DNA of 22,042 nucleotides from a virus, in the IMG/VR virus record IMGVR_UViG_3300021356_000188, positions 1 to 22,042 of that record. One strand, 5' to 3'. Position 1 is the first letter of the stretch. Every line of letters starts with the position of its first letter. The notes below the pieces were generated by a model. The model had not been told where the DNA came from and made no database searches. It saw only the letters and a program-made list of their open reading frames with translations. The position numbers and the translations under genes are program-made. Shown here one piece after another: positions 3,001 to 15,631 of the stretch.

Positions 3001-4973
3001 TTTGGTCGACCAGGAATATATTCCATAAATGATAAGTCGTAGTACTGGTCTTTTTGGTTTGTATTTAGTTTAAAGCTATTTGTAAATATAGCACCAGTTG
3101 AATCTTTAACTGTTTTAATTTTAAATACATCTGGGAAACCTAAGTTGTATTGAGTATTAGCAGGTGTAGCATTACCTGAGTAAATTACCTTAATCCAAGA
3201 ATCTCTTACCACTTTATTATATGAGTCAATACCGTTACTACCAGTGCCTACCAATCTTCTGTTGTGGTAAATATAAACTGGGTTTTGCGCACTTGAATTA
3301 ATAGTTAAATCCATTTGAGAATTGTTTAGTGACTTTGTTAATCCAGTTACAGCTTCTCTTACTCCGTTACCAGTGATTACTAAAATGTCATCTTGTTGAC
3401 AATCAAAATCTTCACCAGGGTTTGCTGTTAGTGTAATTGTACCACTTGAATGGTTAGCTTGAACTTTTTGTCTTACAGGAACTAATGTATCAGTTAACTC
3501 AAACGTACCTAAAATACTAGAATCAAATACTAATGGTTTTTTATTTACTTCTTTTAATTTGTTACCTACTTCAATATATCCGTTTCCATCTGATACTCTT
3601 GAAAGCAATGAAATATTTTCAAGTAATTGTACATGTGCAAGATATAATCTTGTCGGTGTAAGGTTTACAGCAATTGCTTCACCCATTTTAGTACCATCTG
3701 CTTTTTGTAAATCAACTGGTGTAAAATCAATTTCAATTCTTCCACTGAAACTTGTAACATCAACATAATGTCCGTATTGTGTACCAATACTTTGATTATT
3801 GACTAATTCTGTATTTTGAATTTGGTCAATTTGAATACTTCTTTCGCCAGAATTTTCTACACGGAATCCTTTAACATATGCAACGCCTTGACCTACAAGT
3901 GCATGAACTTCACTATCACTTGCTCCTTCTGGTATTCTGTCGTCACTTGAAACTGGGAATTGTTCTAATACGTAGTTACCTGACTCTTCGTATGTTCTTC
4001 GAGCCATTTCCTCACCGAGGATATTATATTGAGAAACATCTCTTAATCCAACAGCGTTTCCGTTTTGGTAACGAATAAGTGAGAAGAAGTCAGAATCTTC
4101 TGCAGCTTCTGTAGGAGTTTTAACAACAAGTGTTGGTGTTAATTTTAATCTATCTGCACCAGGTGCGTTTTCGTTTTTAGAACCGTATGCATTATCAAAT
4201 AATGAGTCGTCTTGTAATGCATTGATTTTAGATTCTGTTACTTGGAAACCTACTGATTTGTCTGCAGGTGTTTCACTATAGTTTTCAACAATTAATGTTT
4301 GCTCTGATGCAAATATGAAATGTCCTTTTTGGAAAATAATACCTGGTGACATTTGAATACCAAATGCTTTACCAACGTTTCCAGTTCCACTTGCAACGGC
4401 ATTACCAGCTGTTGCTGAAAGTACGACTTCACTCGATGGTTCATTAGACTCTTGAGTTCCACGTTTCTTTCTAAATACAGTAATAGTATAAGGTTCACCA
4501 TCTGTAAACTCTGTATATGTGGTAGCTGCATCAGCTGGAGCTAAATACTTAATCCAATATGTACTTGGTTTTGCTGTACGATTTGTACCTGATACTGCTT
4601 TAATAATTTGAGCACGAAGTCCAGATATGGTACCTTGCATAACATAAACTTCATCAATTTCAATAGCATCGCCACCTGGGTCTTCAATAACTACTCCACT
4701 CTGATAAAGCTCTGGGTTAACAGCTGCTGTATTATCAATTTTAACATATCTTAAGTCTTCGTAATTATTAAAGGTACAACCTTTTACAATACTTCCTTCT
4801 TTGAATATGTTATCACCAAACTGTTCAATTTGGTTTTGCAGAATGCTTTGTAACTGTGTAAGCTCACGAGCTTGAACCGCAAATCCCGGCTTAAACAAGA
4901 TTCGATTGAATTGTTTATCTTGGTCGTAATCGTCAAAATATGGCGATTGGTTGAGATTTGTGTTAATAGGCAT
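1..4973 (-). CDS. Giant DUF4815-like virion structural protein (partial, C-terminus beyond left edge)
   Basis: The frame is open from an ATG at 4973 to the left edge, giving 1657 codons without a stop. The gene is therefore cut by the window and its true length is unknown. A ribosome site TAAGGAA (4983-4989) lies 9 bases upstream and overlaps the stop of the gp8-like gene. The N-terminus (MPINTNLNQSPYFDDYD, then FKPGFAVQARELTQLQ) is typical of the DUF4815 family of large tail-associated proteins of marine T4-like phages. Further landmarks are NLQDCLDFRPHCD and YGEISIIKGKEARRP in the middle and KAYRMKDMHALEQKIDNMAYY near residue 845. The rest is beta-rich and Thr/Ser/Asn-rich with no enzyme motif. 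It follows gp8, where T4 has gp9-gp12, so it probably belongs to the outer baseplate or a fibre attachment. That role is inferred from position. Family assignment is from memory of the pattern. Confidence 0.85.
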   Translation of the reverse strand, partial: MPINTNLNQSPYFDDYDQDKQFNRILFKPGFAVQARELTQLQSILQNQIEQFGDNIFKEGSIVKGCTFNNYEDLRYVKIDNTAAVNPELYQSGVVIEDPGGDAIEIDEVYVMQGTISGLRAQIIKAVSGTNRTAKPSTYWIKYLAPADAATTYTEFTDGEPYTITVFRKKRGTQESNEPSSEVVLSATAGNAVASGTGNVGKAFGIQMSPGIIFQKGHFIFASEQTLIVENYSETPADKSVGFQVTESKINALQDDSLFDNAYGSKNENAPGADRLKLTPTLVVKTPTEAAEDSDFFSLIRYQNGNAVGLRDVSQYNILGEEMARRTYEESGNYVLEQFPVSSDDRIPEGASDSEVHALVGQGVAYVKGFRVENSGERSIQIDQIQNTELVNNQSIGTQYGHYVDVTSFSGRIEIDFTPVDLQKADGTKMGEAIAVNLTPTRLYLAHVQLLENISLLSRVSDGNGYIEVGNKLKEVNKKPLVFDSSILGTFELTDTLVPVRQKVQANHSSGTITLTANPGEDFDCQQDDILVITGNGVREAVTGLTKSLNNSQMDLTINSSAQNPVYIYHNRRLVGTGSNGIDSYNKVVRDSWIKVIYSGNATPANTQYNLGFPDVFKIKTVKDSTGAIFTNSFKLNTNQKDQYYDLSFMEYIPGRPKPADGDLLIQLESFQVSGATGEYFFSINSYPNTLDRSDIPVHTSDTGVVYNLQDCLDFRPHCDKESNATYGANESTADGGSALPAVGQTQATFAAYGAPLIPAINESVTTDIEYYLKRIDAIVADSYGEISIIKGKEARRPVPPQVENDKLVIADVTVPSFPALSSKVAFEKNARDYSVKIKPTGVKAYRMKDMHALEQKIDNMAYYISLNQLESDTQNLLITDENGLNRFKNGFVVEPFNDLSLSDISNPEFRSAVPFNQKILTPEVKTFPIDLKYKSNTNGSLFPSVNDPAIGTLSKNSNVEIINQPYATDFRNCVSNFFKYVGEGVISPPYDAAYDTTTNPVEIEIDLGTPFQEFVDVIQRFLPMTDTRVQQIDFERTGRGGAGIATDQITTILNEIVVNNNTISSPVGDFVSNFQFEPFMASRDIKLYMSGLRPDTEHYFYFDGVDVNAHICKGSPADTVSGIERLGDKGVTSIRTDANGNLRAVFNIPAETFYVGDRVLEVADVDTYSSIDSASTSKGFVTYRAYNFSVEKTSLTTSTRQPDFDVNTRTTTRNVTRRVRGRDPIAQTFFIKKGMGQGSNSVFLSEVDVFFKRVSTDNGITLQVREVINGYPTNQIVPFSKVHKLPADLTSAASDDASVATTFAFDAPVKLDVEKEYAIVLQPDASDPNYLVFISKVGGTDLTPGNSQGSAIVQDWGDGVLFTSTNNQAWSSYQDEDMKFTLRRANFNAATGLVKMTPNNPEFLTVGNIAGQFNVGEKIYQDEAAFPTANVSVSESSTTVSGGSNLDNVYSAGDFIRLHDSGNNVNGIYKIASVDSGTSLTLESEWGYTGATVNHKPVTVGELAYLDKQNPDIMHLENSSATATKKFVTGQNVVGLDTGVTAQISSIDNINISYFQPFIAKVNDSVSTTTFDGTFVPVDDVNITYDLPLQFNDNNHFNEKGVVLFSTSNDPSGSKSFDLNVNMTNGGNQTSTPFIDIEISKLLAYQYTLSNTADDS

Positions 4974-4986
4974 TTATTTTATTTCC

Positions 4987-6645
4987 TTAAAATTCCAGTA
5001 CAAACTTAAATTCCTCACGCGATAGGTCTGTTCTAGCTAGTGGGAAGAAGTTTTCCATAAAGTAAACTTCACCAGTTTTCTGCATATAGTTTGATAGCGT
5101 AACATTAGAGGCTACCGGACTATTTATATTGATTGTTTGGCCAGTTTCATTTCTAAATGGTAAAGTTAAATCTAATGGTACGTCGTTTGTTGTTGCGTTG
5201 TCGTGTAATGTTGAACCTGTTGAAGGATTATTTGAATATGGTCCTAGGTATTCAGCAAGATAAACTGTATTTGCATTTTCATCAATTTCGTGCACCTTTG
5301 CGCTAAATACTGTTTCGTTATTACTATCAACTTGGATAACAGTACTATTAGCAGATAGTTTATTGTATTCATCTGTTACTACTGCTATTCTATTATCAAA
5401 TACTAAATCTGTAAATCCTGTGTCAAAGTCGGGTGATCGCACAATACCTACACCACCGTAAGTATTTACATCGCCGATTTTTGTATTATCTTCTGCTGTA
5501 ATATATCCATACATCGAAAAGTGTTTACATTTTAATTCGTCAATCATGCTAAATCCATGACCACCTGGTGGTGATAAACGAGGTCGTATCAATGCACGAA
5601 TATCTGTAGTTGTATTATCTTCAGGTAAAAATTGATTTGCGCCTGGGTCTACAATTCTGCCAGTTGCATTTGTATATCCATTACCTTCATCTAGTACAGT
5701 AACGGTCGTAATTCTATTGTTAACAATATTTGGTATTGCTACTGCTCCAGTACCATCACCAATGATTTCTAATTTTGGAAGTATTTTAAAGTTAGCATTA
5801 CTATCAACACCTGCTAAATCTGGAGTAGCTACTCCAGTTAAATATTCTGCACCAACTCTAATTTCTGCATTACCTGTTAATTCGTTGTACCTATAATAGG
5901 TAATCTCAAATAAGCGTGAAACTCCATTAGCAGGGTTCGTTGTATACATGAATTGGCCAGTAAAGTAATTTGTTACTGGACTCCAATCCGTAAACGGTGT
6001 TACGATAATTACACCAGAGTTATATGGTGTTGCAACAAGTCCACCTCTGTGTTCTTCATATCCAAAATTATCTCCTGGATTTTCAACAACTATATCCGAA
6101 ACTGTGCTAAGTGTTGGTGGTACTGGATTATTTGGTACTGGTGTTGGTACAATTGGAACATAACCAATTGCATTATAAGCATCAAATTCTATTTGAGATA
6201 TAACATACATATATTTCCAAACGTATCCATCAGCTGTAATATAAATTTGATTTGTATTTGTTACATCATAATTTGGCGGTGTGGATGCTGTTCCGCCATT
6301 ATTGTTATTTAAACATTTATAAACTCTATAATCACCAGTATCGTTATCGTTTGGACCTACGACTGCATAAAATCTTTGGTCTGTTAAATTAACATTATCA
6401 TCATACTCGACATATGTTTGACCAACCTGCCAAGGATAATATTTAACCATAAAATGGATGTCTGTATTTAGAATTTTTTTACCAAAAAGCGTTCGTTCTA
6501 AAAATCCAATTTTAGAAGCTTGTGCATCTTCTGGTGAGAACGTATCAATGCCAGAAACGAAAACATAGTAATCATTATTAGCAAGGTCATCTATGAATAA
6601 CCTTGTGACATCACTTTTAAAACTATTACTTAATATTTCTGCCAT
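4987..6645 (-). CDS. gp8: Baseplate wedge protein gp8-like
   Basis: This 552-residue protein carries landmarks shared with T4 gp8. YRVYKC (residues 106-111) precedes an Asn/Gly/Pro loop (NNNNGGTASTPP), and then comes DGYVWKYMYVI (139-149), matching the DGYVWEYLFEI segment I recall from T4. In T4, gp8 forms a dimer in each wedge and bridges gp7 and gp10. The protein is longer than T4 gp8 (334 residues). The extra length lies in a middle beta-rich part and a C-terminal part ending in GEVYFMENFFPL and EEFKFVLEF, a tail I associate with marine phage homologues. A late promoter TATAAATA sits 35 bases upstream of the ATG. The ribosome site is weak (GAG only). It is separated from the gp7-like gene by two inserted genes, unlike the T4 order. 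Confidence 0.8.
   Translation of the reverse strand: MAEILSNSFKSDVTRLFIDDLANNDYYVFVSGIDTFSPEDAQASKIGFLERTLFGKKILNTDIHFMVKYYPWQVGQTYVEYDDNVNLTDQRFYAVVGPNDNDTGDYRVYKCLNNNNGGTASTPPNYDVTNTNQIYITADGYVWKYMYVISQIEFDAYNAIGYVPIVPTPVPNNPVPPTLSTVSDIVVENPGDNFGYEEHRGGLVATPYNSGVIIVTPFTDWSPVTNYFTGQFMYTTNPANGVSRLFEITYYRYNELTGNAEIRVGAEYLTGVATPDLAGVDSNANFKILPKLEIIGDGTGAVAIPNIVNNRITTVTVLDEGNGYTNATGRIVDPGANQFLPEDNTTTDIRALIRPRLSPPGGHGFSMIDELKCKHFSMYGYITAEDNTKIGDVNTYGGVGIVRSPDFDTGFTDLVFDNRIAVVTDEYNKLSANSTVIQVDSNNETVFSAKVHEIDENANTVYLAEYLGPYSNNPSTGSTLHDNATTNDVPLDLTLPFRNETGQTININSPVASNVTLSNYMQKTGEVYFMENFFPLARTDLSREEFKFVLEF
5121..5128 (-). promoter_or_regulatory. Possible intragenic T4-type late promoter
   Basis: A perfect TATAAATA reads on the minus strand inside the 3' part of the gp8-like gene, about 148 bases upstream of the giant structural gene. 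The match is exact. In an AT-rich coding region it could arise by chance, so function is uncertain. Confidence 0.3.
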
Positions 6646-6695: not shown

Positions 6696-9023
6696 CTACG
6701 TTCCAACTTTTATCTTAGGTCTTGGATATAGTTTACCAGAAGCAGGTCGTCTACCATTTAGAGTACCTCTTGGTTGTCCTATAAATTTACCAGCAGGGCC
6801 TTCTAAAAGAGTGTAATCCATATTCATTCTATATGGTGGTGTTCCTGCTTTAATACTTATGTCTTGTCCGCCGTTTGCAGCTCGTCCTTGAGTAATTCTC
6901 CAAACTGTTCCTGCACTGTAAAGTCTATCTGAATTAAAGTTACCAGCTGAAGGTAAGTTTTCAAAATCTACTAACTCTTCGTCTGCAATAATGTCTAGTG
7001 ACTTTCTAACTGCTAATTCTTTAAATTTATCTTGAGATGGATAAGTAAATCTTTGACTAAAAAATTCATCAATTATACAAGCACCAACTCCTGCAGCTTG
7101 AGGTGCTGCACAACTTGTTCCGCTAAAATAACCATATTTACCATCATTAAAAGAATATATTGGGTTTGCAGTCCATGTATTTGCACCCATTCCGCATAAA
7201 TCAATTCCTTGTCCTCTAGAACTATAATCGTCCATTAAAGGATTTGCTACACTATGTTGTGATGCGCCTATTGTAAATGTTCCTGGTCTTCCTTCACTAT
7301 AGCTTCGTGCTGGCCATCTTGTTGTAGCACTAGAAAATGAATTACCGGGTTGTAAATCGAATGCATCGTAACCTTGCGAGGTGTCTCGTTCTATCTCAAT
7401 TAAACCAGACCCTGCAGCAATTACTACTGATGTATTCCATGATGGATGGTCTGAACGAGAAAAAATATTTCCATAATTTCCTGCACTCTTAAATGAGTAT
7501 ATAGAACCGTCTGTAGTGAAACTATCCCAGATAGGACCTAAAGGATTAAATGTTGTTGCAAACTGTGTACCGTAACGTCCGCCAAATCCCCATACAACAC
7601 ACCATTTATCTGTACTATCATTTGGGTCATTAATAACTTTTGGATAAATTCCATTGTCAATAAAAACACTTAAGTCAGTTCCCCAACTACTACCTGGTCT
7701 ATTAACTGTTGTTGCATTATTATCAGCATCATAATATGTTAAAGATTGAATATCATTAATGTATACTGCTTGAGTATTTTCTGCATTAGTATATCCATAA
7801 GCACCAGTAACAATTGTTGCGTTACGAACTCCTGTGACTGGATTAACTGCTTTAGTTTTATGCCATTGTAATATTGCGTTATATCCTTCTGCAAGTCCGT
7901 CTTCTGTATAAATGACTCTAAGGCTTGATGCTTTGGCCCATCCGTTAAAAGTTCCACCTGCTGCACTTAATACGCCTATAGCATGAGATGAAAAACAATC
8001 TAAATTATCTGTTATTTGTTGTTGAGAAACTAAAGCACTATCATAGTCTTCCCAATCCATTCGAACAAATCTACTTCTTTTATATTCAACACGAAGTAGA
8101 CCACTCATGTTGCTATGATTTGAACATATGTATCTTATATTTGTGCCAGGAATTCCTACTAATAATGACGTAGCTTGTTCGTATGTCATTGCAGAAGTCG
8201 GTTCAAAAACAATAACGTTTCCACCAGCCGCTCCTGTATACCCACCGTTATTTGTAAGTGCACTTGATATATCCATTCCATCAGTAGCTTGGATTTCAAA
8301 TGGATGCATTGAACCTTCGCCGTTTGTAATTCTTAATGTATCACCAGGATACATAGTAATAGCTGGGTCGGATGCATTTGAATGTGTCGTTGCTCTATCT
8401 GTTCCACTAATAACCCAATTGTTTGTACCGTCAGCAGTGGCTGTAAGCTCTATTGTAATAGCTTCGCCTAAAAGTTTTGAAGCTTCAGACCCTAACATAA
8501 AATCAGGATGTGTTGGATATTCGTCATATAAAGGACTTCCAGTTCCAGCTTCCATTGCAACTATATCAACAAATTGTCCTGCAAAGTTTTGTTTAATATC
8601 TGCAGATACTCTTCTGTCTTCGTTTTCAGGTGAACTATTAAAGTATCCTACATTGCCAGAACTTGATGTAATATTATCATCGTTCATGTTACCAGTAAAA
8701 TAAAACTGTGTTCCACCAAAATCTGCACCATTGAGATTTTGATAACCAGATGGCAAAGACCCTGTAATCAATTCTGCACTTCTTTCTAATACTGGAGGAT
8801 TTGAATAATATAAAGTTGGTTCTACTTGTATAGGAAGTTCTATACCAATTACTTTTTCGCTTTCATTGAGTGTATTAACTTCATCTTCAGTTAAGAGCAT
8901 AGAAATAATACTATCAATATTACTCAAATTACTTTTGACAGTCATTCCTGCAGCTTCGTTAGCTAAAAATTCAGGTTCATCAGTACCTGGCTGAAGCATT
9001 ACGATGTAATTAGTTTTTTCCAT
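6696..9023 (-). CDS. Subtilisin-like (S8) serine protease with an inserted cupredoxin-like domain
   Basis: This protein has 775 residues. Residues 1-70 (YIVMLQPGTDEPEF, then LTEDEVNTL and VIGIELPIQVEP) resemble an I9-type propeptide, the intramolecular chaperone of subtilases. The protease core shows the catalytic His segment SSHAIGVLSAAGG (H347), the oxyanion-hole Asn in SAGN (N516) and the nucleophile in FSGTSCAAPQAAG (S637). The first catalytic segment, VDIVAMEAGTG followed by HPDF (172-175), has Glu158 where Asp is normal. Between HPDF and the His segment an extra domain (about 180-312) carries HPFEI (H240) and CSNHSNM (C300, H303, M306), a type-1 copper-site pattern. No signal peptide is visible. 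It directly follows the fibre-like gene with a 3-base gap, so the two are probably co-expressed late and may both be virion parts. It could mature a tail protein, cut host surface protein, or only bind. Protease family is confident; role is inferred. Confidence 0.85.
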   Translation of the reverse strand: MEKTNYIVMLQPGTDEPEFLANEAAGMTVKSNLSNIDSIISMLLTEDEVNTLNESEKVIGIELPIQVEPTLYYSNPPVLERSAELITGSLPSGYQNLNGADFGGTQFYFTGNMNDDNITSSSGNVGYFNSSPENEDRRVSADIKQNFAGQFVDIVAMEAGTGSPLYDEYPTHPDFMLGSEASKLLGEAITIELTATADGTNNWVISGTDRATTHSNASDPAITMYPGDTLRITNGEGSMHPFEIQATDGMDISSALTNNGGYTGAAGGNVIVFEPTSAMTYEQATSLLVGIPGTNIRYICSNHSNMSGLLRVEYKRSRFVRMDWEDYDSALVSQQQITDNLDCFSSHAIGVLSAAGGTFNGWAKASSLRVIYTEDGLAEGYNAILQWHKTKAVNPVTGVRNATIVTGAYGYTNAENTQAVYINDIQSLTYYDADNNATTVNRPGSSWGTDLSVFIDNGIYPKVINDPNDSTDKWCVVWGFGGRYGTQFATTFNPLGPIWDSFTTDGSIYSFKSAGNYGNIFSRSDHPSWNTSVVIAAGSGLIEIERDTSQGYDAFDLQPGNSFSSATTRWPARSYSEGRPGTFTIGASQHSVANPLMDDYSSRGQGIDLCGMGANTWTANPIYSFNDGKYGYFSGTSCAAPQAAGVGACIIDEFFSQRFTYPSQDKFKELAVRKSLDIIADEELVDFENLPSAGNFNSDRLYSAGTVWRITQGRAANGGQDISIKAGTPPYRMNMDYTLLEGPAGKFIGQPRGTLNGRRPASGKLYPRPKIKVGT
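8088..8486 (-). other. Cupredoxin-like domain embedded in the subtilase
   Basis: Residues about 180-312 contain YPGDTLRI, then HPFEI (H240), then YICSNHSNMSG (C300, H303, M306). The one-His-early, Cys-x2-His-x2-Met-late arrangement is that of plastocyanin-type blue copper domains, although classic ones have one or two more residues before Met. It sits between the first (Asp/Glu) and second (His) catalytic segments of the protease, so it looks like an insertion into a surface loop. Copper binding is inferred. Confidence 0.65.
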
Positions 9024-9026
9024 TTA

Positions 9027-10676
9027 TTATGACTCTAATTTAAGTACTGTAATTGTAACATCCATATCTGTTGAACTACCTGTGTTATTTGTAATAGTCA
9101 TAGGTAATTCTGTTTCGTTGTTGTCTAGCCATCCGTAAATAGCAGGAGTAACTTTAAATGTAGTATTTGGTGAAGTCGCAACAAATTCTGCAATAACACC
9201 TGCACCTTCTGGTGGGTCATCTGCTGCAGACCTGTTTAAGTCAGCTGACCTTGATGCAGTATCTGAATATATTCTTATACGACATTCTTTTTCAGCAACT
9301 ATTTCGTAAATTGCAAATGATTTACCACAATTTGTAAATTCTAAATAGTCTAAGTTAGCAAATGAAGATGTTGTCTGTGTTTCTGTTACACGAGAAAGGC
9401 TTCCACCTCCACCACTTGATGATGGGTCAGAAATAACAATATCACCAATCATCGATGAGTGAGATGTACAAATATAATGGTATGTTCCGCTTATATTTCC
9501 AGGAACTTTCCAGTAAAGAGTACCTTCGTATTTACCTTGAGCATTAGAACCAGTAGATTTAGTACCATCATTTCCGTAATGAACAAGACCTGTATTATAA
9601 GCAGTTGTTCCATCAGGTTGTCTGATTTCAAATGGGTGACTTGAAGTAGCACCATTTAATTCAAAACCTATTGTTTGTCCAGCTTGAACATAAACTGTTG
9701 GATTATCACCAGGTAGTTGGTCCATTGTGTATTTTGAACTATCAGGTCCAACAACATAGTAAGTTGAAACAGCAGTGGCTGCCATATCGTGAAGGTCAAG
9801 GTCAGCAGTATTAACTTCTGTTAATCCTGCAAGAGTAGATGAACCACCCCCTCCACCAGATGCACTTAATACACCGTTACTAGCTGATAAATTAGTACCT
9901 GCAATTGCTGCAACAAAATCTACAATTGATTCTTTCTTAGAAGCATTAGAATCATTAGCATCAATAAATCCAAAACTATCTGCAGCTACGTCTATTGCAC
10001 CAGCTGATAAACTGTTAAGGTCGGTGCCACCACCGCCTCCACCACCAGATGCGTTAATTGTAATTTCATCATTGTTTGCATCAGTTGTAATTGTAACATT
10101 GGAACCAGCTACAAAAGTAATACTATCTTCAGCTCCATCAGCTACGATATCACTTTGACCTGCAACGGAGATTGTTTTAAATGCTTCATTAACATTACCA
10201 CCTCCACCGCCGCCAGTTGCTTGTTGAACCCAAGTATATGTACCATCAGCATTTGTTTTTAATACATAATCAGCTGTTTCTGAATTTGTAATATTACCAG
10301 AATAAACATAAGACGCAAGAGGGTCTGTGTAATTAGTAATTGCTCCTTCTGAAGTATCAGCAAGAAGTCTTCTCCAAGAACCGTGAGCATAATACAGTGA
10401 GCCAGTATCGTGAGCATGGCCAATAGCTCCGTGATATGTACTTGCGTCAACTGCATCTAATAAAACTTTTGTGTCATATAAGAATGAAACTTTATGAGGT
10501 TCACCCGAAAGGTCTAAATTTCCGTTAGAATCGAATATGTTGGTAAGCGTTGTTGCATTACCATAACTGAAATATATTTCGTTAAAATTGTCGTTTACTT
10601 TATCGAATGCATTACGTAACGGGTCACCTGACCCATCATTCGCTGATGCTCCGATATTAATTGTTTGCTTGGCCAC
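9027..10676 (-). CDS. Gly-rich tail fibre-like structural protein with cupredoxin-like domain
   Basis: This 549-residue protein starts at GTG, supported by AAGGAG (10685-10690) 8 bases upstream. The N-terminal module (TINIGASANDGSGDPLR, then AFDKVNDNFNEIY) is one I recognise as recurrent in marine phage fibre and structural proteins. Next come a beta module (FKTISVAGQSDIVAD to NDEITINA, about 166-209), a linker domain, a cupredoxin-like domain (about 315-415) and a beta-rich C-terminal domain (about 426-549). Runs of 4-7 glycines separate the modules at residues 155-160, 211-217, 274-278 and 422-425. The cupredoxin-like part has HPFEIR (H347) and YICTSHSSMIG (C403, H406, M409). The gene lies between the gp7-like wedge gene and the subtilase and is probably expressed late. 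A baseplate-attached short fibre or decoration protein fits best; the exact role is unknown. Confidence 0.7.
   Translation of the reverse strand: MAKQTINIGASANDGSGDPLRNAFDKVNDNFNEIYFSYGNATTLTNIFDSNGNLDLSGEPHKVSFLYDTKVLLDAVDASTYHGAIGHAHDTGSLYYAHGSWRRLLADTSEGAITNYTDPLASYVYSGNITNSETADYVLKTNADGTYTWVQQATGGGGGGNVNEAFKTISVAGQSDIVADGAEDSITFVAGSNVTITTDANNDEITINASGGGGGGGTDLNSLSAGAIDVAADSFGFIDANDSNASKKESIVDFVAAIAGTNLSASNGVLSASGGGGGSSTLAGLTEVNTADLDLHDMAATAVSTYYVVGPDSSKYTMDQLPGDNPTVYVQAGQTIGFELNGATSSHPFEIRQPDGTTAYNTGLVHYGNDGTKSTGSNAQGKYEGTLYWKVPGNISGTYHYICTSHSSMIGDIVISDPSSSGGGGSLSRVTETQTTSSFANLDYLEFTNCGKSFAIYEIVAEKECRIRIYSDTASRSADLNRSAADDPPEGAGVIAEFVATSPNTTFKVTPAIYGWLDNNETELPMTITNNTGSSTDMDVTITVLKLES
9402..9413 (-). 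repeat. Poly-glycine linker 4 (4 Gly)
   Basis: Four consecutive GGN codons encode Gly422-425, between the cupredoxin-like domain and the C-terminal beta domain. Confidence 0.85.
9417..9734 (-). other. Cupredoxin-like domain in the fibre-like protein
   Basis: Residues about 315-420 show VYVQAGQTIGFEL, then HPFEIR (H347), and YHYICTSHSSMIGDIVI (C403, H406, M409) about 55 residues later. Spacing and residues match the domain in the neighbouring subtilase, including HPFEI and YIC-x2-H-S-x-M. All four type-1 copper ligand positions are present. Copper binding has not been shown. Confidence 0.65.
9843..9857 (-). repeat. Poly-glycine linker 3 (5 Gly)
   Basis: Five consecutive GGN codons encode Gly274-278, after the linker domain and before the cupredoxin-containing part of the fibre-like protein. 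Confidence 0.85.
10026..10046 (-). repeat. Poly-glycine linker 2 (7 Gly)
   Basis: Seven consecutive GGN codons encode Gly211-217, ending the VAGQSDIVAD-type beta module. Confidence 0.85.
10197..10214 (-). repeat. Poly-glycine linker 1 (6 Gly)
   Basis: Six consecutive GGN codons encode Gly155-160, dividing the N-terminal virion-attachment-like part from the first beta module. Confidence 0.85.
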
Positions 10677-14897: not shown

Positions 14898-15314
14898 TTA
14901 TCTTATCCTTTCTAATATTAAATCAAGTGATATTGGTCTTTCAACATTCTTGATATAAAAACGTATATTTACACTAACTTTATTGTCGTCGTATATACTT
15001 GAAGCAGTTATGTCTATAATTTCTGCTCTTGGTTCGTAAATTTTAATAGTATCTGCACACCTGCTTTCTATAACTTTTAAAGTACCTGGAGTAATGTTTT
15101 CAAATAATAAAGCTCTAATACCTCCACCAATATAAGGTTGCATTAACCTTTCGCCTGGGTCAGTTAAAATTAAATTCTTAATGCTTTGTTTAACTGCGTC
15201 TTCATCTTTTAAAAGAGCTATATCTTTTGATATAGGACTAATCCTAAGGTCTTTATGAAAGTCGCTGTATAAATTTGGCTTTCTATTTATTGGTGTTTTT
15301 AAACTAATTGTCAT
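14898..15314 (-). CDS. gp25: Baseplate wedge protein gp25 (gpW/gp25 family)
   Basis: At 138 residues it is near the length of T4 gp25 (132). The family core is visible: VKQSIKNLILTDPGERLMQP followed by YIGGGIRALLFE (61-72), and the conserved EPR triad in IYEPRAEI (92-99). The fold is shared with tailed-phage gpW and type VI secretion TssE proteins, where it nucleates sheath assembly at the baseplate. Its start overlaps the stop of the peptidase gene (ATGA at 15311-15314), implying translational coupling. In T4, gene 25 lies in another cluster; here it is next to gene 6. Confidence 0.93.
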   Translation of the reverse strand: MTISLKTPINRKPNLYSDFHKDLRISPISKDIALLKDEDAVKQSIKNLILTDPGERLMQPYIGGGIRALLFENITPGTLKVIESRCADTIKIYEPRAEIIDITASSIYDDNKVSVNIRFYIKNVERPISLDLILERIR

Positions 15315-15631
15315 CTTATTATTTCTCTAACATCTAAATGAATATGATTATCATATATAACTACACCTAAGAATCCAGATTTTTTAGCATTTTTAATAAA
15401 AACTGGAATCCAATCATTACCTTCTAAGTTATTGTATATGTTTAAAACCTCATCTATTTTCTTAAATGAGTCGTCCATTTTAATATCTATAACAAGTCCA
15501 CTAAGGTGAGGGTTATCATTTTCCTTTTTTAAGGTATTTTGATTATAATCTGGACTTACCCAGCCATTTGTTATAGTTATTGTACTACCATATATTTTTT
15601 GTAATCTTTGAAGATATACTTTAACATCCAA
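15311..15631 (-). CDS. Small M15-type zinc peptidase (D-Ala-D-Ala carboxypeptidase/endopeptidase-like)
   Basis: This 106-residue protein has the M15 zinc signature HLSGLVID (H42 to D49, the HxxGxxxD pattern) and the C-terminal pair in NHIHLDVR (H96, H98, D100), preceded by GFLGVVIYD. M15 enzymes cut peptide bonds in peptidoglycan. No membrane segment or signal peptide is seen. Its place between spike/hub genes and gp25 suggests a tail-tip enzyme that opens the wall during DNA entry, replacing the lysozyme domain absent from the gp5-like protein. The start is doubtful: the first available codon is TTG at 15631 with no clear ribosome site, while the frame stays open upstream for 15 codons (through GLPAYTHLDLD, which looks native) with no standard start codon. 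An atypical start or translational coupling to the upstream gene is possible. Confidence 0.75.
   Translation of the reverse strand: MDVKVYLQRLQKIYGSTITITNGWVSPDYNQNTLKKENDNPHLSGLVIDIKMDDSFKKIDEVLNIYNNLEGNDWIPVFIKNAKKSGFLGVVIYDNHIHLDVREIIR

Follow-up and report, generated by a model that had tools for sequence, protein, structure and literature searches.

The gene at positions 6,696 to 9,023 of the window (the whole 22,042-nt stretch of viral DNA analysed here) raises the question of how a blue copper-like domain came to lie inside a subtilase, and of what it does there. The initial annotation placed a cupredoxin-like domain at 8088-8486, i.e. residues 180-312 of the 775-aa ORF, between the HPDF segment and the segment of the catalytic His347 and not at a terminus. 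It proposed that the domain could make protease activity dependent on copper or redox state, or could serve as a substrate-docking arm. The identity and the position of the domain were borne out. A cupredoxin profile matched it over model positions 2-107 of 108 (i-E 2e-25 in our own ORF set), between HPDF (172-175, on the catalytic-acid strand) and RFVRMDW (318-324, the strand before the His helix), so that it precedes both His347 and Ser637 in the sequence. The gap between these two motifs is 142 residues in the window versus 7-11 residues in homologs at about 20 IMG/VR E-type loci (i.e. with Glu at the acid position; they include L031, L037-L042, L045, L051-L058 and L062, measured from the HPDF-like motif to the RF..MDW strand); the alignment comparison suggested with the annotation thus finds the insertion absent from some relatives. 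Because these homologs lack the domain, between flanks that are conserved, and the core aligns to subtilases without it, the window cupredoxin is an insertion, and we rule out that it is part of the protease fold. An assembly chimera is also unlikely, as a second contig (L001) that differs at one residue carries the same insertion.

Table 1. Features of the window discussed in the text, with the basis for each assignment.
Feature	Position	Strand	Basis
gp8-like baseplate wedge subunit, downstream neighbour	4987..6645	-	PHROG 438 E 5e-49
775-aa virion-type S8 subtilase ORF with embedded cupredoxin	6696..9023	-	PF00082, PHROG 15006, fold Z 16-18
Ser637, catalytic (GTSCAAP)	7113..7115	-	invariant; Pfam and phmmer alignments to subtilisin
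Asn516, oxyanion-hole Asn (SAGN)	7476..7478	-	invariant in alignment
His347, catalytic (SHAIGVL aligned to HGTHVAG-type motif)	7983..7985	-	invariant in alignment
Cupredoxin domain, residues 193-311, site 1	8091..8447	-	HMM match, PDB profile matches, absence in homologs
Cys300-x2-His303-x2-Met306, predicted Cu ligands	8106..8126	-	columns 41/44, 41/42, 41/43
His240, predicted type 1 Cu ligand (HPFEI)	8304..8306	-	column 43/45
Glu158, catalytic Asp position (VDIVAMEAG)	8550..8552	-	hhalign, E column on D column
Propeptide-like (I9 fold) N-terminal domain, residues 1-66	8826..9023	-	model and Foldseek
gp9/10-like baseplate wedge / tail fiber connector, upstream neighbour	9027..10676	-	PF07880 E 3e-6, PHROG 677 E 4e-45
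Second window cupredoxin, connector residues 304-416	9429..9767	-	profile match; HPFEI and CTSHSSM, full ligand set

The protein that carries the insertion is a divergent S8 homolog by fold and not a canonical S8 peptidase, since Glu158 stands at the Asp position. The Pfam match to PF00082 (E 1.7e-8) covers residues 526-675 only, i.e. the C-terminal S8 part; PHROG 15006 (tail fiber) matches the ORF with E 8.8e-53, and residues 186-310 give a separate match to PHROG 9158. In place of an Asp-His-Ser triad the window subtilase has His347 and Ser637 with Glu158 as the acid, and the oxyanion-hole Asn is present. The annotation had assigned the His347 segment correctly; what it lacked was that the first catalytic position is Glu and not Asp. 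Misassignment of the catalytic segments is ruled out for His, Asn and Ser, and for the acid position the alignment of E-type with D-type (Asp) phage subtilases sets VDIVxvE on VDVVIVD (hhalign, prob 99.9). The N-terminal domain has a beta-alpha-beta-beta-alpha-beta topology in the structure model (mostly pLDDT 76-88) and matches the subtilisin propeptides 1scj_B and 3cnq_P with Foldseek TM scores, normalised by target, of 0.74-0.75. The Glu is found in 37/37 E-type ORFs (near-copies counted), which could mean that these are pseudoproteases, in which Glu for Asp inactivates the enzyme and the fold is a mere carrier; this would be compatible with any reading of the cupredoxin. We consider it unlikely, however, as invariant His, Asn and Ser together with a retained propeptide-like domain would be unusual in a dead enzyme. 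Because all of the catalytic parts and the propeptide-like domain are constant, the Glu-His-Ser-Asn set favours some proteolytic activity of the E-type subtilases. One insert-free relative (L037, 2325-4202) has GTSNAAP at the catalytic Ser, versus GTSC or GTSM in the others.

We modeled the window protein (P0001) with AlphaFold2, using an alignment whose key columns had been checked. Structure prediction had been proposed with the annotation as a check on the embedded domain, and it succeeded for the protease and not for the insert: Foldseek identifies the core as a subtilase (prob 1.0, E 1e-3), and in VIA-align it superposes on subtilases including PCSK9 and proteinase K with Z 16-18 (rmsd 3.0-4.2 A over 212-236 residues, all within model residues 104-743), but the embedded cupredoxin itself has pLDDT values of 30-43. 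The low-confidence model (mean pLDDT 48) suggests that the protease core folds around the inserted cupredoxin. A sister protein with two inserts gave a core subtilase match with Z of about 10-11. Models of circularly permuted cupredoxin homologs (described below) were all-beta and mostly at pLDDT 67-86; with Foldseek a permuted model gave no more than weak matches, to two-domain laccases, which may be expected because this aligner is order-dependent.

As a single sequence the window cupredoxin had no match in Pfam or the PDB, and its link to blue copper proteins therefore comes through the family profile. A profile of 16 phage cupredoxins with the window domain as its first row matched the solved structures of copper nitrite reductase (1.9e-7), amicyanin (2.7e-6), plastocyanin (6e-6) and rusticyanin, and the C-x2-H-x2-M spacing of the window domain is identical in the matched amicyanin. 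When the rows were tested singly, four matched Pfam Copper-bind and three Cupredoxin_1, the window row matching neither. The family thus combines homology to solved blue copper proteins with two His, a Cys and an axial Met. Among 45 non-redundant phage cupredoxin domains (<70% identical) the four ligand columns are 93-98% conserved (counts in Table 1), versus a median column majority of 0.49, and in the four exceptions mostly several ligands are missing jointly. Loci fetched by protease patterns alone showed similar ligand retention, except for decayed copies in L052. In that contig the ORF starting at 3416 has three tandem cupredoxin copies before the protease (residues 191-489), of which the first is intact and the second and third lack the Cys-His-Met ligands, i.e. 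the copper site has decayed; the copy in L091 has also lost its ligands. The cupredoxin fold can therefore persist without copper, and such copies, together with the many sites at which the domain is found, are what would be expected if it were a passive spacer, i.e. a stable beta-sandwich spread by recombination with an inherited but unused copper site. We regard this as quite unlikely, since four ligands that are near-invariant against about 49% per column, and usually lost jointly, make the copper site look selected in most of the phage copies. The conserved ligands instead favour the use of copper by the module.

The positions of the domain in relatives indicate a movable unit whose copper site is conserved. 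It was found at site 1 (the site occupied in the window) and at a second site (site 2), in both strand orders at each, as well as in an N-terminal linker, at the C-terminus and in the adjacent connector gene. In Synechococcus phage S-CAM1 and in IMG/VR relatives the site 1 domain is circularly permuted, its halves being reversed such that profile positions 88-108 (or 66-108) precede 1-86, i.e. the C-H-M half comes before the HPFEI half; there are 18 such pairs in all. Permuted domains lie at two sites within phage subtilases, examples being L021 5294-5638, L026 site 2 and L010 4550-4921. A second, permuted copy occupies site 2 in L021-L024 and L026-L029, and an unpermuted copy occupies it in L045, L051, L053-L058 and L128. 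L016 and L021 differ at site 2 by a clean 339-bp segment: the module is missing from L016, and in blocks of 150 bases the aligned flanks are for the most part 83-99% identical. At least one cupredoxin lies at the C-terminus of D-type phage subtilases, namely that of S-H9-1 and those of dozens of contigs, a number biased by the use of that very domain to fetch them. Homologs without the module keep all of the catalytic residues. On the E-type core tree, where exact placements are uncertain owing to several long branches, gains and losses are not separable everywhere and some site 2 inserts were removed by the column filter alone, site 1 occupancy requires two changes and site 2 occupancy four. 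In the domain tree the permuted copies form one group (SH-aLRT 94) and the window copy stands apart, for which reason we think that the permutation probably occurred once and that the window insertion was a separate event. Derivation of the window copy from the cupredoxin of the neighbouring gene was not supported, as the two do not group, in a domain tree whose support is weak.

The subtilase gene lies within a cluster that also contains gp25-, gp6-, gp7- and gp53-like genes and has the gene order of a baseplate module. This neighbourhood and the PHROG 15006 label suggest that the window subtilase is located in the virion. The upstream connector carries its own cupredoxin (Table 1); in seven relatives (L038, L040-L042, L055, L057 and L062) the ORF upstream of the subtilase likewise contains one. 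Using a hand-written consensus of the cupredoxin domain as query, for which the counts are valid, we found the module in 84 phage records, nearly all from marine cyanophages, where it occurs in connectors, fibers and wedge proteins including the wedge initiator; none of its relatives was found in 84,980 cellular genomes.

These distributions bear on the role of the module. The annotation's copper/redox switch, in which a domain beside the active site would activate or silence the protease depending on copper or redox conditions, draws on the location of site 1 directly after the catalytic-acid strand and HPDF, on the conserved ligands, and on the occupation of site 1 at least twice. We nevertheless judge it very unlikely: the module is not confined to site 1 but is found at site 2, at both termini, in a neighbouring protein and in two strand orders, unlike an allosteric switch that depends on geometry, and module-free homologs retain every catalytic residue. 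What appears to be kept across relatives is a copper-type domain on the tail assembly and not a fixed geometry relative to the active site. The annotation's second suggestion fares better, in that a docking or adhesion arm is plausible. In its protease-specific form the domain would keep the substrate, either a tail fiber or a protein of the host surface, close to the active site, and phage subtilases are indeed repeatedly paired with cupredoxins at many positions, a pairing subject to ascertainment bias; the module is common, however, in tail proteins that are not proteases (connectors, fibers and the wedge initiator), which makes this form improbable. Because the module occurs in several loops, at both ends, in both orders and in neighbouring proteins, we favour autonomous display or adhesion over a copper switch, the adhesion role being suggested by analogy.

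Taken jointly, the observations would be explained by a tail or baseplate Glu-His-Ser subtilase with an inserted, copper-binding, mobile display or adhesion cupredoxin, a reading to which we give an even chance. According to it, a type 1 copper module would have been inserted into the loop between the first two core strands of a propeptide-bearing T4-like phage subtilase; the protease core would fold around the module and display it on the protease surface, where it would most likely bind copper and act as an autonomous mobile domain, an equivalent in marine phages of the promiscuous Ig-like domains on phage virions, and the subtilase may process a tail component or a host surface protein. A broader proposal, tentative and somewhat unlikely, is that marine T4-like phages have spread a blue copper domain through their tail proteins and that copper aids adsorption or attack on the host surface. 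The copper would then be acquired either inside the infected cell or from seawater, and the domain would have been spliced, once in circularly permuted form, into the Glu-His-Ser protease.

Each of the components is already known: S8 subtilases, cupredoxins, and beta-sandwich domains that are mobile among virion proteins. S8 peptidases have been noted in cyanophages (PMC3037559), and mobile Ig-like beta-sandwich domains such as T4 Hoc are described in PMC10385173; the window module resembles the latter in its working, but belongs to the cupredoxin family and has a conserved copper site. According to the annotation, no described phage protease of this design was known, which fits the papers searched; the databases do contain relatives, whose labels go no further than tail fiber protein or subtilisin-like serine protease. 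The S-CAM1 protein YP_007672920 (PHROG 15006, 'tail fiber protein') is an E-type subtilase like that of the window, 28% identical to it over 99%, with a cupredoxin at the window's site, there permuted (model 66-108 before 2-86). In Synechococcus phage S-H9-1 the subtilisin-like serine protease YP_010669573 has the same cupredoxin family fused to a phage subtilase, but with an Asp-type catalytic site and a C-terminal domain. Synechococcus phage S-BM3 (L006) encodes a peptidase S8 (WDS61281, about 2,650 aa by record coordinates) with a cupredoxin likewise nested between S8 catalytic segments (residues 294-397, with a second, partial match at 716-838), but inserted later, before SAGNG with the oxyanion Asn. 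Amicyanin, plastocyanin and rusticyanin share the profile homology and the His...Cys-x2-His-x2-Met pattern with the window domain, which differs in being embedded in a virus tail protease and has no known electron-transfer partner; PCSK9 and proteinase K-type subtilases share the core and propeptide folds but lack the Glu and the nested domain. In the literature searched, which covered few subscription papers or preprints, we found no description of phage cupredoxins, of their combination with subtilases, of copper-site conservation in tail proteins or of the natural circular permutation. The same-site presence/absence and the independent insertion sites document that type 1 copper domains are mobile components of phage tails, the natural permutation retains all four predicted copper ligands, and the analysis reveals a subfamily of proteases in which Glu replaces the catalytic Asp. 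The question of copper also bears on the oceanic role of metals on phage tails, where discussion has until now concerned iron.

No Rfam or tRNA features were found in the window. The closest relatives of its gp6-like protein are those of Sinorhizobium phages phiM19 and phiM12 (39%). Between the baseplate genes, at 15311-15631 on the minus strand, lies a 106-aa protein with a match just below threshold to Peptidase_M15_3 (E 1e-4), possibly a cell-wall peptidase.
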